Assembly: GCF_018100805.1 (NCBI RefSeq)
Contig: NZ_JAGJEA010000002.1
Span: 310,001 to 374,000 of the forward strand
Direction: 5' to 3'
DNA length: 64,000 nucleotides
Source of the DNA: Aquimarina sp. MMG016
Lineage (GTDB): Bacteria; Bacteroidota; Bacteroidia; Flavobacteriales; Flavobacteriaceae
Below, in pieces: positions 1 to 12,286 of the stretch; positions within the stretch are counted from its first letter, which is position 1; the number at the start of each line of letters is the position of its first letter. The translations under genes and the position numbers were made by a program. Under the pieces are notes generated by a model. It searched no databases. It was not told the DNA's origin and worked only from the letters and a program-made list of their open reading frames with translations.

Positions 1-95
1 CTCCACTAGAAGAAACACAAATCGTAGGGGGTAGAGATAAAGTTAAAGTAAAAGTAAAAGTGAAGATCAAAACCAGACTCACTACAACACTTTAA
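1..95 (+). CDS. Partial precursor peptide with double-glycine leader end and Lys-Val repeat core
   Basis: The only open frame at the left edge begins at base 3 and ends at TAA 93-95, giving 30 residues; the start lies outside the window. The visible part reads PLEETQIVGG followed by RDKVKVKVKVKIKTRLTTTL. The first part matches the end of a double-glycine leader (hydrophobic residue, acidic pair, Ile-Val, Gly-Gly) of the kind cut by C39 peptidases after GG. The 20-residue remainder is strongly cationic and alternates Lys with Val/Ile, which would make an amphipathic beta strand; it has no Cys or Ser. A C39 exporter and an oxygenase follow on the same strand. Leader and cleavage are inferred, and the missing 5' end could change the picture. 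Confidence 0.6.
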   Translation, partial: PLEETQIVGGRDKVKVKVKVKIKTRLTTTL

Positions 96-171
96 TAGTT
101 GGAACCATAATGAAGGAATCGGGAGGATTTATTTCTCCTGATTTCTCTCTAAGGAATTAAAAGATAATATT

Positions 172-1446
172 ATGGAAAAAATAATCAAAAAAACGGAACA
201 TTTTAGTAAAGCATGGTGGGATAATTTTCTGGTTGAAAATGAAAATTTCACTAAAACTAAAGTCTTTAGTAATACCCTAAATGATAAACAAGTAAATAAG
301 TTAAATGCTGAGGTATTAACAATTCTTAGGAATATGTATAAGCACAATGTTAATATAGAAGGCTTTAGGTTTTATTTGGACAGTGAAGAGCAGAATGAAG
401 ATTATGTTAAGGAACATATATTCAATAAACCACCTCCATTGGAGCATGAAAATATGGAACAATATGCAGCCCGGATGTTTAAAGACCAGAAATTCGCCAT
501 TATCCTCAATTTCACCGAAAAGTATTCTAATGAAATGGCAAAAATGCTTCGCAAAATGGTAGATCCACTTATCCAGAAAATGGGATATCCATTATTAGGG
601 TTAGACGGTACTATATTTATTGGTAATTACGGATATACACCACTAGGCATTCATCAAGATAGAAGAGGAGAAAATGTAATGCATTTTCATTTAGGACCAG
701 GAGATAAAATCATGTACAATTGGGAAGAAGATTTATACGAAGAATTAGCACAGTCCAAACCTAATAATACCAATATCAAACCATTATTAAAGCATGCTCA
801 GAAATATGAATTCAGCACAGGAGATGTATATTATATGCCCTGGAATAAATGGCATTTAGGATATTCTGGTGATTTATCGGTTGCGGTAACATTATGGTTT
901 AATAACCCGACCAAAGATACGTATACAAAGGCCATGTTTCGATCCTTGCAGGTACAGTATATTAATGAAGATGATACGGTACTAACTTTAGATAGTGATA
1001 CCAGTAATGTACATCCGTTATTAGCAGTCGAGAACCTTCATCGAGAAACTAGTTTTCTGGATATTCTGGATCATGTAAGTAAAGAGTACAGGCTTGCTAT
1101 CCTTAGTAACGGAGGATGGTCCGGGCTACCTTTAACGCTTAAAGCGGAAGAAACCTTTGATTTAGATGAAGACTATGGCATTTTGGCCGGCAAGCAGATC
1201 AAAACTCCAGAATTTTTCAAGATTTATTCTGTAAAATTCGAAGACGAATTGACATTTTTTGCCAGAGGATATAAAATGGAAATTAAATACCATCCTGAAT
1301 TAGAAAATATTATCAAAAGATTAAATACTCATGAAGTTATCGCTGTAGATGAATTAATTAAAAAGCTCTCAGAAGATTGGCCGGTAGATGCGGGGCTCTA
1401 TTTTCTAGGTCTGCTTTATGATAAAAAAGCAATAGAAATTGTTTAA
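172..1446 (+). CDS. JmjC/cupin-like Fe(II)/2-oxoglutarate-dependent oxygenase, probable peptide hydroxylase
   Basis: A 424-residue cytosolic protein without signal peptide. The centre carries a JmjC/cupin facial triad: H161-Q-D163 in GIHQDRRG and a distal His228 in NKWHLGYSGD, with the FHLGPGD and GDVYYMPW strands of the double-stranded beta helix between them. The C-terminal part (about 250-424) is helical and of unknown role, like the extra domain of cupin_4 hydroxylases. Such enzymes hydroxylate amino-acid side chains in proteins. It lies 76 bases after a putative precursor peptide and 83 bases before a peptidase-containing exporter, so the precursor is the likely substrate (inference). 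ATG 172 is the first good start after the peptide gene. Confidence 0.75.
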   Translation: MEKIIKKTEHFSKAWWDNFLVENENFTKTKVFSNTLNDKQVNKLNAEVLTILRNMYKHNVNIEGFRFYLDSEEQNEDYVKEHIFNKPPPLEHENMEQYAARMFKDQKFAIILNFTEKYSNEMAKMLRKMVDPLIQKMGYPLLGLDGTIFIGNYGYTPLGIHQDRRGENVMHFHLGPGDKIMYNWEEDLYEELAQSKPNNTNIKPLLKHAQKYEFSTGDVYYMPWNKWHLGYSGDLSVAVTLWFNNPTKDTYTKAMFRSLQVQYINEDDTVLTLDSDTSNVHPLLAVENLHRETSFLDILDHVSKEYRLAILSNGGWSGLPLTLKAEETFDLDEDYGILAGKQIKTPEFFKIYSVKFEDELTFFARGYKMEIKYHPELENIIKRLNTHEVIAVDELIKKLSEDWPVDAGLYFLGLLYDKKAIEIV

Positions 1447-1529
1447 GAGAACCATACATATTCTAAAATAAAGAATGTGTCTTAATATGATTCAATAGAT
1501 CATCCAAACCTCAAAAATCAAATAATAAA

Positions 1530-3743
1530 ATGTCTTTTCAATTTACACACCAGCATGATAATATGGATTGCGGACCAGCTTGCTTAAGTATGGTAGCCAG
1601 CAGTTATGGAAAGAACTATCCCTTAAAATATTTAAAAGATAATTCTGCGATTACTCGCGAAGGAGTCTCTTTAAGTGGGATACGAGAAGCAGCAGGAGAG
1701 ATAGGCCTGGATGTAGTTTCTTCAAAAATTAGTATTGAGGATCTCAAAGCCAATAAAGACTTTATGCCCTGTATAGTACATTGGAACCAAAATCATTTTG
1801 TAGTTCTTCGTAAGATCTCTAAAAACCTTTTTAATGATGGATATACTTATCATGTGGCCGATCCGGCACATGGAGTAGTTCGGTTATCCGAGGAAAACTT
1901 CAAGAAATCTTGGTTATGTGGAGATGAGGAAGGTATTATATTGTTTCTGTTTCCAACAAAAGAGTTTCATGAAAAAGAATCGGTGAAAAAAGAAAAAGTA
2001 TCTATAAAGTATATGTTTAGTTTTCTAAAACCTTATAGAAAACAACTTACCTATATGTTCTTCTTATTATTGATAGGTAGTGGATTAACATTAATCTTTC
2101 CATTTCTTACTCAATTATTGATTGATAAAGGAGTGAATGTTAAAGATATAGATTTTGTGTTTTTAATTCTTTCTGCCCAGCTAGGGGTTTTCCTGGGATC
2201 GATTACCATAGATATTTTTCGTAACTGGCTAATGTTATATGTGGGTACACATCTTAGTATTACTATCATTTCAGATTTTATAAAGAAGATGTTACAGTTA
2301 CCGATTAAGTTTTTTGATACCAAAAAGAAAGGAGATTTTATTCAGCGTATACAGGATAATGAGCGGATAGAAGAGTTTTTAACATCACAAGGGCTTACCA
2401 CATTATTTTCCTTAATAACATTTGCTGTTTTCTTCGGAGTATTCTGGTATTATGATCATAAAATATTTTTAGTATACCTCTTATTAACTGTTATTGCTGT
2501 AGGTTGGTCTTTCTTCTGGCTTAAGAAACGTAAGCGATTAGACTATTATCGTTTTCAACAGCGTAGTGAGGATCAGGAATCCATTTATGAAATTATTAAT
2601 GGGGTGACAGAGATGAAAATCAATCAGTTTGAGGATTTTAAAAGAAAAGAATGGGAGAAGATCCAACAAAAACTCTTTAAATTAAATATTAGAATACTTA
2701 AAATCGATCAGATTCAGCTTTCTGGTTTTGAGTTTATAAATCAATTAAAGAATATTCTGGTTACTTTTTTAGCAGCGACCTATGTAGTTCAGGATAAGAT
2801 GACATTAGGGGCACTATTGAGTGTATCGTATATTATTGGCCAGATGAATTCACCGATCAATCAATTGATCACTTTCTTTAGATCGTTGCAAGATGCTAAA
2901 TTAAGTTTAGAACGATTAAACGAAGTACAAAATCATCCGGTAGAAGAGCAAGAAGGGCAGAAACCTATTATTAGGTCTAATACCTATAAAAAGAACGGAA
3001 TCGAGAGAGGAATCCACCTGAATAATGTAAGCTTCAGGTATGGTGGATCAATGTCTCCAGAAGTACTAAAAGATATAGATCTTTGCATTCCTGAAGGTAA
3101 GATAACCGCCATAGTAGGTGCAAGTGGAAGCGGCAAAACCACACTGATGAAATTATTACTTAGATTCTATGATCCTACAGAAGGGCAGATACATTTTAAT
3201 CATGATAATATTTTGGATATTTCTCCAAAAAGTATACGTGAGAATTGCGGAGTCGTGATGCAAGATGGATATATCTTTTCGGATACTATAGCGCGTAATA
3301 TCGCGACAGGTGATGAAGATATCGATGTTGATAAACTAAATCATGCGATTAAAATAGCCAATATAGAAAATTTTATATCGTCTTTACCGCTAGGACTAAA
3401 AACCAAAATAGGTGCAGCAGGTAATGGAATATCAGGAGGTCAACGTCAACGAATTCTTATTGCCAGAGCAGTCTATAAAAATCCTCACTATATTGTTTTT
3501 GATGAGGCCACTAGTGCATTGGATGCCGAAAACGAAAAAATAATACACGATAACCTACAAGGGTTTTTTAAGCAAAAAACAGTATTGATCATTGCACACC
3601 GATTAAGTACGGTAAAAAACGCAGATCAGATTATTGTACTAAAGAATGGTGAAATAGTAGAAAGTGGTAATCATCAGGAACTAGTCGAGCATAAAGCGGA
3701 TTATTTTAATCTGGTCAAGAACCAGCTGGAATTAGGAAATTAG
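1530..3743 (+). CDS. Peptidase-containing ABC exporter (C39 peptidase, membrane and ATPase domains)
   Basis: A 737-residue PCAT exporter that cuts double-glycine leaders and exports the mature peptide. The N-terminal C39 peptidase (about 1-135) has the papain-like triad: Cys14 in MDCGPACLS, His89 in NQNHF and Asp111 in VADPAHG. The membrane domain is about 160-440. The ATPase (about 500-737) has Walker A GASGSGKTT (from residue 530), signature ISGGQRQR, Walker B YIVFDEATSALD and switch IAHRLS. All active residues are present and the length is typical (700-740). No adaptor (HlyD-like) or TolC gene follows in the window, so partners, if needed, are elsewhere or upstream. It belongs with the peptide and oxygenase genes upstream. 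Confidence 0.95.
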   Translation: MSFQFTHQHDNMDCGPACLSMVASSYGKNYPLKYLKDNSAITREGVSLSGIREAAGEIGLDVVSSKISIEDLKANKDFMPCIVHWNQNHFVVLRKISKNLFNDGYTYHVADPAHGVVRLSEENFKKSWLCGDEEGIILFLFPTKEFHEKESVKKEKVSIKYMFSFLKPYRKQLTYMFFLLLIGSGLTLIFPFLTQLLIDKGVNVKDIDFVFLILSAQLGVFLGSITIDIFRNWLMLYVGTHLSITIISDFIKKMLQLPIKFFDTKKKGDFIQRIQDNERIEEFLTSQGLTTLFSLITFAVFFGVFWYYDHKIFLVYLLLTVIAVGWSFFWLKKRKRLDYYRFQQRSEDQESIYEIINGVTEMKINQFEDFKRKEWEKIQQKLFKLNIRILKIDQIQLSGFEFINQLKNILVTFLAATYVVQDKMTLGALLSVSYIIGQMNSPINQLITFFRSLQDAKLSLERLNEVQNHPVEEQEGQKPIIRSNTYKKNGIERGIHLNNVSFRYGGSMSPEVLKDIDLCIPEGKITAIVGASGSGKTTLMKLLLRFYDPTEGQIHFNHDNILDISPKSIRENCGVVMQDGYIFSDTIARNIATGDEDIDVDKLNHAIKIANIENFISSLPLGLKTKIGAAGNGISGGQRQRILIARAVYKNPHYIVFDEATSALDAENEKIIHDNLQGFFKQKTVLIIAHRLSTVKNADQIIVLKNGEIVESGNHQELVEHKADYFNLVKNQLELGN

Positions 3744-8072: not shown

Positions 8073-8507
8073 ATGATGAAAACTATTGTATTAACATTTT
8101 TATTACTTACCACTTCTTTAGCTTCTATACATGCACAAAGTGATGACTATAAACTGGTAGCACAAACTGTATCGTATTACCTGGATGGTGGAACGAATAA
8201 CAATTTTGAAACCGTACAAAAAGCATTTCACCCTAATGCGATAATGAGAGGAATTAGGGGAGGAAAATATATGGAAATAAATGCGCTTGAATTCTTTAAG
8301 AAAGTAATAAAACCAGGACCTAAACAGAATAGAAAAACTCGTATCGATTATATTAATATATCCGGAAATACCGCTAGTGCAAAGCTAGAAATAGAATATC
8401 CGAACTTTATGTTTATAGATTATATGAATTTATTGAAAGTGGACGGGGAATGGAAGATAGTAAGTAAGATTTACTATAGAAAGTCTTTTGAAAATAACAA
8501 TAACTAA
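8073..8507 (+). CDS. Secreted NTF2-like (putative lumazine-binding family) protein
   Basis: A 144-residue protein with a signal peptide ending near SLASIHAQ. The mature part resembles the NTF2-like "putative lumazine-binding" family of Bacteroidota: a start of the type YKLVAQTVSYYLDGGTNN, then AFHPNAIMRG, and an end NLLKVDGEWKIVSKIYYRK. These small alpha+beta barrels bind ligands or act as enzymes; the ligand is not predictable. It starts 28 bases after the DJ-1 gene and ends just before the second NTF2-like gene, so the three look co-transcribed. Confidence 0.85.
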   Translation: MMKTIVLTFLLLTTSLASIHAQSDDYKLVAQTVSYYLDGGTNNNFETVQKAFHPNAIMRGIRGGKYMEINALEFFKKVIKPGPKQNRKTRIDYINISGNTASAKLEIEYPNFMFIDYMNLLKVDGEWKIVSKIYYRKSFENNNN

Positions 8508-10339: not shown

Positions 10340-12286
10340 ATGAAAAGCTTATTTCCTTATCTATTGATTGTTTTTACTATTGTTATAGTTTCGTGTAGTA
10401 ATGAAAGTCTGGATACTGACTTACCATCACTGATTATTGCCGATCCTGAACTTCCTGAGAATACATCTACTACACCTTGTGATTTTGATCTCTCTGATGT
10501 TACAGTTAATCAAACATTAGTTATTGATTGTGTATTAGATCTTAGAGGGGAAACTGTTACGTTACCCGAAAATGTGATTTTTGAGTTTGATAAAGGTGAT
10601 ATTATTAATGGTACACTTAATTTTACTGGTGGAGGACGGATTGATGGGCGATTACTAAATTCAAAACTTACACTGGAAGGCGATGTGCAATTAATTGATC
10701 CAACTTTTAAGTTTTATGCTTTGAGATGGGATTTGGTAGAAGGAAGTACAATTTCTGATATAGCACTGCAAAATACTGAAATATTAGAAAGAGTGATGTT
10801 TTTAACCAAATACCTTGGAGCGACCACCTTTTTAATCAACAAACTAAATGCTTTTTTCGAAGTTACCAAGGTTACCAGTACTACCTCTGACCAGAATTTT
10901 TATCCTTCGCTGGAAGCGGTGAATATTCCTTCTAATTTTACGTTAGAAATGACTGATAAAACGCATCTACGTATATTTCCGGGAGAGGCAGGAACAAGAG
11001 GAGGCACAATTCTGGCAGTAAGGGATGTAGAAAATGTAACTATAAAAGGAGGAACATTATATGGGGATCGTGATCAACGTATATATTCACCAAATGATGA
11101 TGGTCAGGAAGGAAGCCATTTATTTCATATTCATTCAGGAAGAAATATTACCGTAGATGGAATACGTTTTGAAGAAGGATCTGTAGGGTCAATTGCAATA
11201 TATTCTTTTGGATTTTCTTTTAATCCTAATTATAATCCTACCAATGGTGTTGTTATACGTAACTGTGTATTTAAGGATTCACGAAGAATGTCTATTGCCT
11301 TAACTGATGGGCGAGATATTCTTATCGAAGGCAATACTTTTATTAATAATGGTATGCCTTCTACCAATTCTGATGGAGGAGAAGTTGGTTATGCCATTAA
11401 TATTGAACCGGATCGGTTTAGAGATGATAATGGAGTATTGATGGAACGCCAAAAGGTTTTTGATGTTCAGATCAGGGGTAATACAGAAACCGGAAGCAGA
11501 GGAGGTTTTGTAACACTAACTATTGGGCAAGACCTAACCGTAGAAGATAATGATATTGGAACACGAGTAGTATACTCTCTGGTTTCGGGATCCAAAGTGA
11601 GTAATAATAGATTCACTGCATCAGGAAGCGCAGCAGATAGCTGGGCGATCTTTGCCGCAGGAAGTGGAGAAACCGTATTTGATAATGAAATTGCAGGTAA
11701 TATAATTACTGGGTATAGCTTGGGTATTGCTGCAGGATCAATAGATGCGTATATACATGACAATACTATAACAGATTGTGGAGGTGGTATCCAAATTAAT
11801 AGAGGTGCTAGGCAAGCTAGAATCATAAATAATACTATTTCTGTTACCGGAAATGGAGTCCAGGCTACTAATACCGAGGCAAATGATGTTTTGGTTCTTC
11901 AAAACACAATAACTTCAGAAGGTTTTCATGTCTATTTCGTAAATCTTAATAATACCGAAGAACACAAAGATCAAAAGGTAGTATTAGAGGATAATACCTT
12001 TATAAATAGTAGAGCTGTTACTTTTTCCAATTCTAGAGGCATTACCTTTATAGGTAATGAGATAGATGGGGGAATGGAAGTAGGTAATGTATTTAATACT
12101 CGTATTGTAAGTAATATCATAAGACCTAATGAAAGTGATGGTATCCGTTTGTTTGGTACCCATCAAAATGTGGAAGTAATGAATAATACTGTATATGAAC
12201 CTACCGGTGCTGCTCGATACATCTGTATCAATAATAATTCTGATACTCCGGAGGGTATAGTAGAAAATGGGAATACTTGTAATTAA
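10340..12286 (+). CDS. Surface lipoprotein with right-handed parallel beta-helix
   Basis: A 648-residue protein with lipoprotein signal (LLIVFTIVIVSCSNES). After a short linker, most of the chain is made of NosD/pectate-lyase-like coils, seen as repeated units such as VENVTIKGGTLYG, GRDILIEGNTFINNG, KVSNNRFTASG, AYIHDNTITDCGGGIQINRG and ARIINNTISVTGNGV. Such solenoids bind or cleave polysaccharides in known relatives, but no catalytic triad could be assigned here and no carbohydrate-use (SusCD) genes are next to it. It may be an adhesin, carbohydrate-binding protein or lyase. Confidence 0.8.
   Translation: MKSLFPYLLIVFTIVIVSCSNESLDTDLPSLIIADPELPENTSTTPCDFDLSDVTVNQTLVIDCVLDLRGETVTLPENVIFEFDKGDIINGTLNFTGGGRIDGRLLNSKLTLEGDVQLIDPTFKFYALRWDLVEGSTISDIALQNTEILERVMFLTKYLGATTFLINKLNAFFEVTKVTSTTSDQNFYPSLEAVNIPSNFTLEMTDKTHLRIFPGEAGTRGGTILAVRDVENVTIKGGTLYGDRDQRIYSPNDDGQEGSHLFHIHSGRNITVDGIRFEEGSVGSIAIYSFGFSFNPNYNPTNGVVIRNCVFKDSRRMSIALTDGRDILIEGNTFINNGMPSTNSDGGEVGYAINIEPDRFRDDNGVLMERQKVFDVQIRGNTETGSRGGFVTLTIGQDLTVEDNDIGTRVVYSLVSGSKVSNNRFTASGSAADSWAIFAAGSGETVFDNEIAGNIITGYSLGIAAGSIDAYIHDNTITDCGGGIQINRGARQARIINNTISVTGNGVQATNTEANDVLVLQNTITSEGFHVYFVNLNNTEEHKDQKVVLEDNTFINSRAVTFSNSRGITFIGNEIDGGMEVGNVFNTRIVSNIIRPNESDGIRLFGTHQNVEVMNNTVYEPTGAARYICINNNSDTPEGIVENGNTCN

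Follow-up and report, generated by a model that had tools for sequence, protein, structure and literature searches.

Among described ribosomally synthesized and post-translationally modified peptides (RiPPs), the systems closest to the one considered here are those of the biphenomycin type, in which BipG and PbsQ hydroxylate an ornithine residue in the precursor, and the PosC/PflC systems of Pseudomonas, in which PosC β-hydroxylates four consecutive glutamines, and a valine in a mutant (PMC12636437). Hydroxylated Gln strings therefore exist in RiPPs. The ribosomal oxygenases YcfD, MINA53, and NO66 hydroxylate C-3 of Arg or His (PMC5862942), and eukaryotic fusions of a JmjC domain (PF08007) with a fold like that of RiPP recognition elements (RREs) have been reported together with bacterial homologs (~30%) in "RiPP-like genomic contexts" (mSystems 2025, PMC12710340). 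Here, we analyze a locus at the start of a 64,000-nucleotide stretch of Aquimarina sp. MMG016 (contig NZ_JAGJEA010000002.1, positions 310,001 to 374,000 of the forward strand; hereafter the window, whose numbering is used for features). The locus appears to be a compact RiPP gene set, consisting of a peptide gene, an oxygenase gene, and a C39 exporter gene. We consider it probable that it represents a RiPP family with one recognizable maturase, a JmjC hydroxylase that is guided by the leader and modifies the peptide core repeatedly, with trimming and export by the C39 transporter to follow.

Gene set and conserved linkage

All three genes lie on the + strand, separated by spacers of 76 and then 83 bases. 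The window opens within the precursor gene, whose 3' part (1..95, + strand) encodes the end of the leader and then the core RDKVKVKVKVKIKTRLTTTL, the start lying 52 bases upstream of the window. In the genome the complete open reading frame (ORF; G000:C12:309949-310095, equal to 11949-12095 of locus L006) encodes 48 aa, MKNQKFNAREFLNVKTLSPLEETQIVGG | RDKVKVKVKVKIKTRLTTTL, comprising a double-glycine leader with the motif FLxxKxLSPLExxxLxGG and a 20-residue repetitive core. It is followed by the oxygenase gene (172..1446, + strand; 424 aa) and by a gene for a peptidase-containing ABC transporter (PCAT; 1530..3743, + strand; 737 aa), which joins C39 peptidase, permease, and ATPase in one chain, with Pfam matches to Peptidase_C39, ABC_membrane, and ABC_tran that exceed their cut-offs by far. 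Within the C39 domain (1536..1913, + strand; Pfam match and alignment), C14, H89, and D111, which we take to be the C39 catalytic triad, are kept together with the Walker A motif in 24/24 aligned exporters. A sequence-only reading of this stretch had placed a precursor end, an oxygenase with an HQD...H triad, and an exporter with an intact C39 triad and ATPase on one strand. These elements are borne out, the precursor end being completed by the 48-aa ORF and the oxygenase triad being H161-Q162-D163...H228.

Linkage was surveyed by running a leader hidden Markov model on every 30–110-aa ATG ORF of 27 loci (the window genome and 26 others) at E ≤ 0.05. The test genus was left out of training except in the case of L047, whose model still contained other Aquimarina peptides; the training set was picked by hand, and L024 was treated as Aquimarina by guess. 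In 25/27 loci the leader matches fall no more than 3 kb from the oxygenase, and no locus has one farther away (bases covered, 160,749 near and 326,292 far); these counts do not stand for 27 independent events because near relatives are among the loci (L027-L030; L031/L033; L040/L043). The two misses are L043, whose precursor sits inside a run of N with its polyglutamine (polyQ) end visible, and L046; the L047 match (2e-4) is weak and belongs to a different leader type. In 24/27 loci the oxygenase has a full C39-ABC exporter no more than 5 kb away, the exceptions being L025, L047, and L032 (contig ends). A lack of such linkage among relatives had been named beforehand as what would refute the sequence-only reading; linkage was found for both partners of the oxygenase.

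Co-occurrence extends to whole genomes. The leader was found in 5/397 genomes of the family, exactly the five with a close oxygenase (Fisher p 7e-10; the two draws of 397 genomes, for oxygenase and for leader, have the same size and the same identifiers where listed). Oxygenase homologs occur in 8/397, of which three carry distant members and no leader. A draw across the phylum gave the oxygenase in 3/395 genomes, one of them weak, and a scan with two short patterns across a collection of 84,980 species gave at least 26 loci, all in Bacteroidota, a lower bound because these patterns missed members later found. One genus genome outside the training set (L077) encodes two oxygenases, a 727-aa protein matching C39, and a leader peptide (E 1.6e-5) whose core is TASKLDTVRVTERVKVTERVRVTVRK. 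L074-L076 contribute nothing extra because they come from the same genomes as L026, L046, and L047. Two or three oxygenase copies stand beside precursors in L025, L031, L033, L036, L041, and L077. As a side observation, the polyQ precursor of L043 (~8300-8470), from a Flavobacteriaceae metagenome-assembled genome, sits in the run of N mentioned above; assemblies may thus lose repeats of this kind.

The precursor is under purifying selection. Relative to the Aquimarina aggregata copy (L023), the proportions of synonymous and nonsynonymous differences (pS/pN) are 0.49/0.13 in the leader and 0.56/0.16 in the core (16 core codons), and over the aligned DKVKVKVKVKIK stretch the two copies encode the same residues with different codons. 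Against L024, core constraint is weaker (pS 0.61, pN 0.31). On the whole window genome, the leader model, which includes the window peptide, gave E = 2.2e-15 for the precursor and E = 1.3 for the next best match. Leader linkage, this genome-wide score, and purifying selection rule out a chance small ORF. Two of the features looked for in a RiPP gene set are present, namely a short encoded precursor with a conserved double-glycine leader and a core, and a candidate maturase gene conserved beside it (25/27 loci; 5/5 in genome-wide co-occurrence). None of 10 precursors reaches an NCBIfam cut-off of a known precursor family, and phage or viral carriage was rejected, a viral contig scan having given no relative.

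Between precursor and oxygenase lies a stem-loop (112..147, + strand; -21 kcal/mol, z -2.35) with the core AAUCGGGAG/CUCCUGAUU, a probable attenuator or mRNA-stabilizing hairpin. A hairpin after the precursor gene is a usual means of making precursor in excess of enzyme, and here it would probably raise precursor over enzyme levels. Initial folding covered 10 chosen loci; the survey took 24 of the 27 (L043, L046, and L047 left out) and, in each, the 80 bases that follow the precursor nearest upstream of the oxygenase. Folds with z ≤ -2 occur there in 21/24 loci, against 3/24 after the oxygenase (Fisher p 3e-7), a control that is only rough because it is partly coding in some loci and that at the window locus also gave z -3.2. 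The three exceptions (L025, L034, and L035) all have tandem precursors.

Oxygenase, peptide cores and proposed reaction

The assignment of the oxygenase to the JmjC group is weak by sequence and strong by predicted structure. Its Pfam JmjC_2 score is 17.1 bits against a cut-off of 22, for which reason we call it JmjC-fold and do not place it in PF08007; 25/35 oxygenase rows match JmjC_2 at E ≤ 0.1 (best 2.9e-5), and a sequence search of the PDB returned no significant match for the enzyme or its C-terminal domain. The structure model (predicted local distance difference test score 91) matches the ribosomal oxygenases YcfD, NO66, and MINA53, with a predicted double-stranded β-helix and a C-terminal winged-helix domain. 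Two of three predicted Fe(II) ligands lie in H161-Q162-D163 (652..660, + strand) and the third is H228 (853..855, + strand); H161 and H228 are present in 35/35 rows and D163 in 33/35, with Glu in two distant rows, giving an HxD/E...H arrangement. K179 and Y182, also invariant in 35/35 rows, are candidate cofactor-binding residues. By fold comparison, the C-terminal domain (residues 336–424; 1177..1443, + strand) also matches RREs. A distant oxygenase subfamily (L020-L022, L078, and L079) has neither leader nor exporter nearby; in it, HxE replaces HxD in L020/L021 and a gap falls at that site in L022. The L020 gene adjoins an Asp/Asn hydroxylase gene (PF05118), and the neighbors in L022 and L079 look similar by reading, without Pfam confirmation.

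The cores fall into several types: KV (L006, L023, and L024), KE-like (L025 and L031-L037, of which L031 is from Niastella), VR/QQV (Chryseobacterium L027-L030), KQ (L026 and L038), polyQ of 7–17 residues (L039, Altibacter L040, L042, L044, L045, and L048), and HHHDHD (L041), with single KCKCKCKC and QCQCQGQQQQ peptides in L034 and L045. Precursors may stand in tandem, up to six in L034. Measured against 291 neighboring proteins, 32/41 cores hold a stretch whose low complexity is matched by ≤1% of random windows, and the KV core of the window locus by 0.02%. Lys, Gln, and Val are enriched and aromatic residues depleted (F 0.012, Y 0.002, W 0). Microsatellite slippage as the sole source of the repeats is ruled out by their mixed codons (CAA/CAG; GTT/GTA/GTG), which point to selection on the protein repeat. 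With classes assigned by hand, core class requires nine changes on the oxygenase tree, compared with 20.4 with shuffled labels (0/200 shuffles as low); KV and VR form well-supported groups, and polyQ and HD together form one clade (97/96). The K/V-type enzymes have W224 in 22/22 rows and K226 in 17/22, whereas the polyQ enzymes have W224 in 0/7 and E226 in 6/7, a comparison that is clade-level and no proof. W224 is also kept in L046 and L047. Residues 224 and 226, just before the metal ligand H228, are candidate specificity residues.

The RRE-like domain fused to the oxygenase and the way core type follows the oxygenase tree support action of the enzyme on this peptide, and thereby lend partial support to the sequence-only inference that the oxygenase hydroxylates the K/V/I-rich core ahead of export. 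From leader binding to biological purpose, the steps proposed here are those we infer from computed features (genes, linkage, predicted fold, conserved triads, purifying selection, and hairpin). The ribosome would make the 48-residue precursor, and the RRE-like C-terminal domain of the oxygenase most likely binds the leader. The Fe(II)/2-oxoglutarate JmjC domain would then hydroxylate repeated core residues, Lys and/or Val here and Gln in polyQ members, most likely at C-3 (the β carbon). We prefer C-3 because it is the position used by YcfD, MINA53, and NO66 alike, and with it one geometry could serve Lys, Val, Gln, and His. The C39 exporter would cut after Gly-Gly and release the core into the periplasm. 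An action on membranes is conceivable for the cationic KV peptides; a single antimicrobial role across the family is disfavored because polyQ is neutral and KE zwitterionic.

Several observations weigh against this proposal. First, the likeness to RREs comes at a best Foldseek E-value of only 1.5e-3; Pfam gave no RRE/PqqD match and, across 34 C-terminal domains, nothing beyond weak and scattered names; and the RRE-like fold is also that of the C-terminal domain of ribosomal oxygenases, so that fold alone is no proof of leader binding. Full-length Foldseek TM-scores to YcfD are 0.43–0.48 with a root-mean-square deviation of 9–10 Å, indicating a different domain arrangement. Second, the cores are uneven. 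Nine of 41 are not unusually repetitive, and no residue is common to all (V in 23/24 loci, K in 14/24, Q in 14/24), so the modified residue is not fixed. On the tree, polyQ alone is only moderately supported (60/89), KE (four changes) and KQ are not single groups, and the agreement of core class with the oxygenase tree may come from common descent alone. Third, the gene set is not constant: in L025 and L047 no C39 exporter lies nearby, the oxygenase occurs in 9/52 genus genomes of which four have no leader nearby, and it is not always the sole maturase, since in L046 it lies in a grasp-with-spasm cluster and in L038 beside a second hydroxylase-like gene. Finally, C-3 is not assured for Lys, because on this residue JMJD6 acts at C-5 and JMJD4 at C-4 (PMC5862942), and a graspetide 2-oxoglutarate enzyme yields 5-hydroxylysine (PMC13097080).

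The nature of the reaction bears on the rival that fares best, in which the oxygenase does modify the precursor, using the same Fe(IV)=O chemistry for cross-linking, desaturation, epimerization, or backbone cleavage. 2-oxoglutarate enzymes also macrocyclize in RiPPs (Xia, 2025), PosC/PflC cleave a backbone, alternating KV cores would bring side chains near each other in a strand, and the residues beside the metal ligand (W224/K226) vary with core type. Against this, the nearest folds are plain hydroxylases; in the cores, aromatic residues, which are common cross-link partners, are rare, Cys occurs in 3/24 loci, and polyQ offers little for cross-links. We regard this rival as unlikely, if the most serious of those considered.

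The structural likeness to ribosomal-protein hydroxylases, the best matches of the oxygenase, would also fit an enzyme with a different hydroxylation target, for instance a ribosomal protein, the peptide being secreted unmodified or otherwise matured, and the distant subfamily without leader or exporter could be read in the same way. Unlike a housekeeping enzyme, however, the oxygenase is patchily present (8/397 family and 9/52 genus genomes), co-occurs with the leader in 5/5 cases when close, is multicopy beside precursors, and is tracked by core type. We therefore judge this possibility very improbable.

Returning to repeated hydroxylation of the core, we hypothesize more broadly that the locus belongs to a RiPP class defined by a single ribosomal-oxygenase-like JmjC maturase with a built-in recognition element, which β-hydroxylates whole one-residue runs, with enzyme clades matched to homopolymeric or dipeptide cores (Lys-Val, Lys-Glu, Val-Arg, polyGln, and His-Asp) and with secreted poly-β-hydroxylated peptides as products, and that RREs and the domain at the C terminus of ribosomal oxygenases are one and the same; for this fuller statement we find the case evenly balanced. 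If true, it would offer a one-enzyme, leader-guided tool for hydroxylating long runs of ordinary residues through simple two-gene expression. Bacteria would have natural secreted polyQ, KV, and KE repeat peptides, in which solubility and assembly may be governed by hydroxylation. The re-tuning of one fold from Lys/Val to Gln could be tested directly, with 224 and 226, beside the metal site, as the candidate residues.

Neighboring genes

Upstream of the precursor lies a gene for a 795-aa outer-membrane β-barrel protein (OMP_b-brl_3, E 1.3e-88), a homolog of which is found within 5 kb in 19/27 loci. The barrel may serve release or reception of the peptide (exit, receptor, or self-protection). 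Ten flanking genes of the window scanned with Pfam belong to ordinary families or none (LysE, Lrp/AsnC, GSDH, FAD_binding_4, RNase_T/GIY-YIG, YchJ-like, AraC-type, and DJ-1); among these 10, other flanking genes being outside the scan, there is no further RiPP maturase family. Grasp-with-spasm maturases (ATP-grasp, SPASM) are likewise absent from the 10, other loci not having been profile-scanned for them.

In Aquimarina agarilytica (L046 8980-16120), the same oxygenase type lies within a grasp-with-spasm cluster (TIGR04192, TIGR04193) that has Cys-containing GG peptides. This is probably the A. agarilytica ATP-grasp locus of a graspetide survey (PMC8939145). Small proteins of 109–179 aa without family, of several types, stand beside many clusters (L031 8557, L040 8588, L023 10294, L034 10293). 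That they form one clear family was rejected, since among 14 aligned M1 alone is invariant, and no such gene lies between precursor, oxygenase, and exporter in the window locus. We also give very little credence to the oxygenase being a late tailoring enzyme of a larger RiPP pathway with its main maturase encoded elsewhere in the genome, for which the L046 cluster and the small unassigned proteins adjoining the oxygenase in several clusters speak, and against which stands the window locus, with neither such a small gene nor, among the 10 flanking genes, a RiPP maturase family. Also against it, lanthionine-type chemistry cannot be general, because Cys, Ser, and Thr occur in the cores of 3/24, 11/24, and 16/24 loci, respectively.

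A conserved trio, composed of a ThiF-family adenylyltransferase, a divergent LuxR-type regulator, and a protein weakly like FeeM/N-acyl amino acid/autoinducer synthases, was seen in 7/27 clusters. It lies upstream of precursors in L023, L027, L029, L030, L034, L035, and L037, occurs also at L016 5822-8219 (the same genome as L037), and is in none of the polyQ clusters. The trio hints at density control and a possible Bacteroidota quorum-sensing module. Elsewhere in the window genome (L007 7547-11132), a second C39 exporter and an HlyD-like gene lie beside SusC/SusD-like and amylase-like genes, named by reading their sequences; no precursor was noticed there.

Comparison with known systems

A RiPP family with JmjC as sole recognizable maturase and repetitive cores in Bacteroidota was not found described in open-licence PubMed Central, a limited negative, as subscription literature is mostly outside its scope. 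The sequence-only reading had held a RiPP system with only a JmjC maturase to be new. The present family keeps that standing within the literature just named, and the rest of the claim needs trimming, because JmjC RiPP hydroxylases (BipG/PbsQ) and multi-Gln hydroxylation (PosC/PflC) were already known. Confined to the window, that reading had no view of the members with polyQ, KE, and VR cores, of the RRE-like fold, of how widely the hairpin is conserved, or of the upstream barrel. A Flavobacteriaceae survey lists an Aquimarina cluster family that antiSMASH calls RiPP-like and RRE-containing (PMC10734526) and that may include the present locus type. The passage on bacterial homologs of the eukaryotic JmjC-RRE fusions, which may or may not include the present family, specifies neither the bacterial family and its hosts nor any precursor or type of core (PMC12710340).

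The enzymes of biphenomycin-type systems (BipG, BpmG, and PbsQ) are likewise JmjC/cupin-like. In those systems the hydroxylase contributes a single tailoring step and works with MNIO, radical SAM, and arginase-like enzymes, whereas here the oxygenase is the sole recognizable maturase, the cores are repetitive, and a C39 exporter is present. PosC/PflC are the closest functional precedent for the polyQ members. They are described with an HEXXH motif, a zincin-like fold, a nitrile-hydratase-like leader, an MNIO partner, and ARMD cleavage; the present oxygenases form an unrelated family, in which HExxH was found in 0/35 rows. With double-glycine/PCAT systems the locus shares the GG leader and a C39-ABC exporter that keeps Cys, His, and Asp; unlike them, it has no HlyD-like gene among the window-locus neighbors read, and an OMP_b-brl_3 barrel lies upstream. 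The ribosomal oxygenases (YcfD, NO66, and MINA53; JmjC_2 group) share with the window enzyme the predicted fold, including the C-terminal domain, and the HxD...H triad. The window enzyme is only 11–16% identical to them in fold searches, differs in arrangement (TM 0.43–0.48 to YcfD), and falls below the JmjC_2 cut-off, and, unlike theirs, its gene is patchily present and stands beside GG-leader peptides and C39 exporters. If the proposed relationship is true, the shared domain suggests a link between ribosome hydroxylation and peptide natural products.

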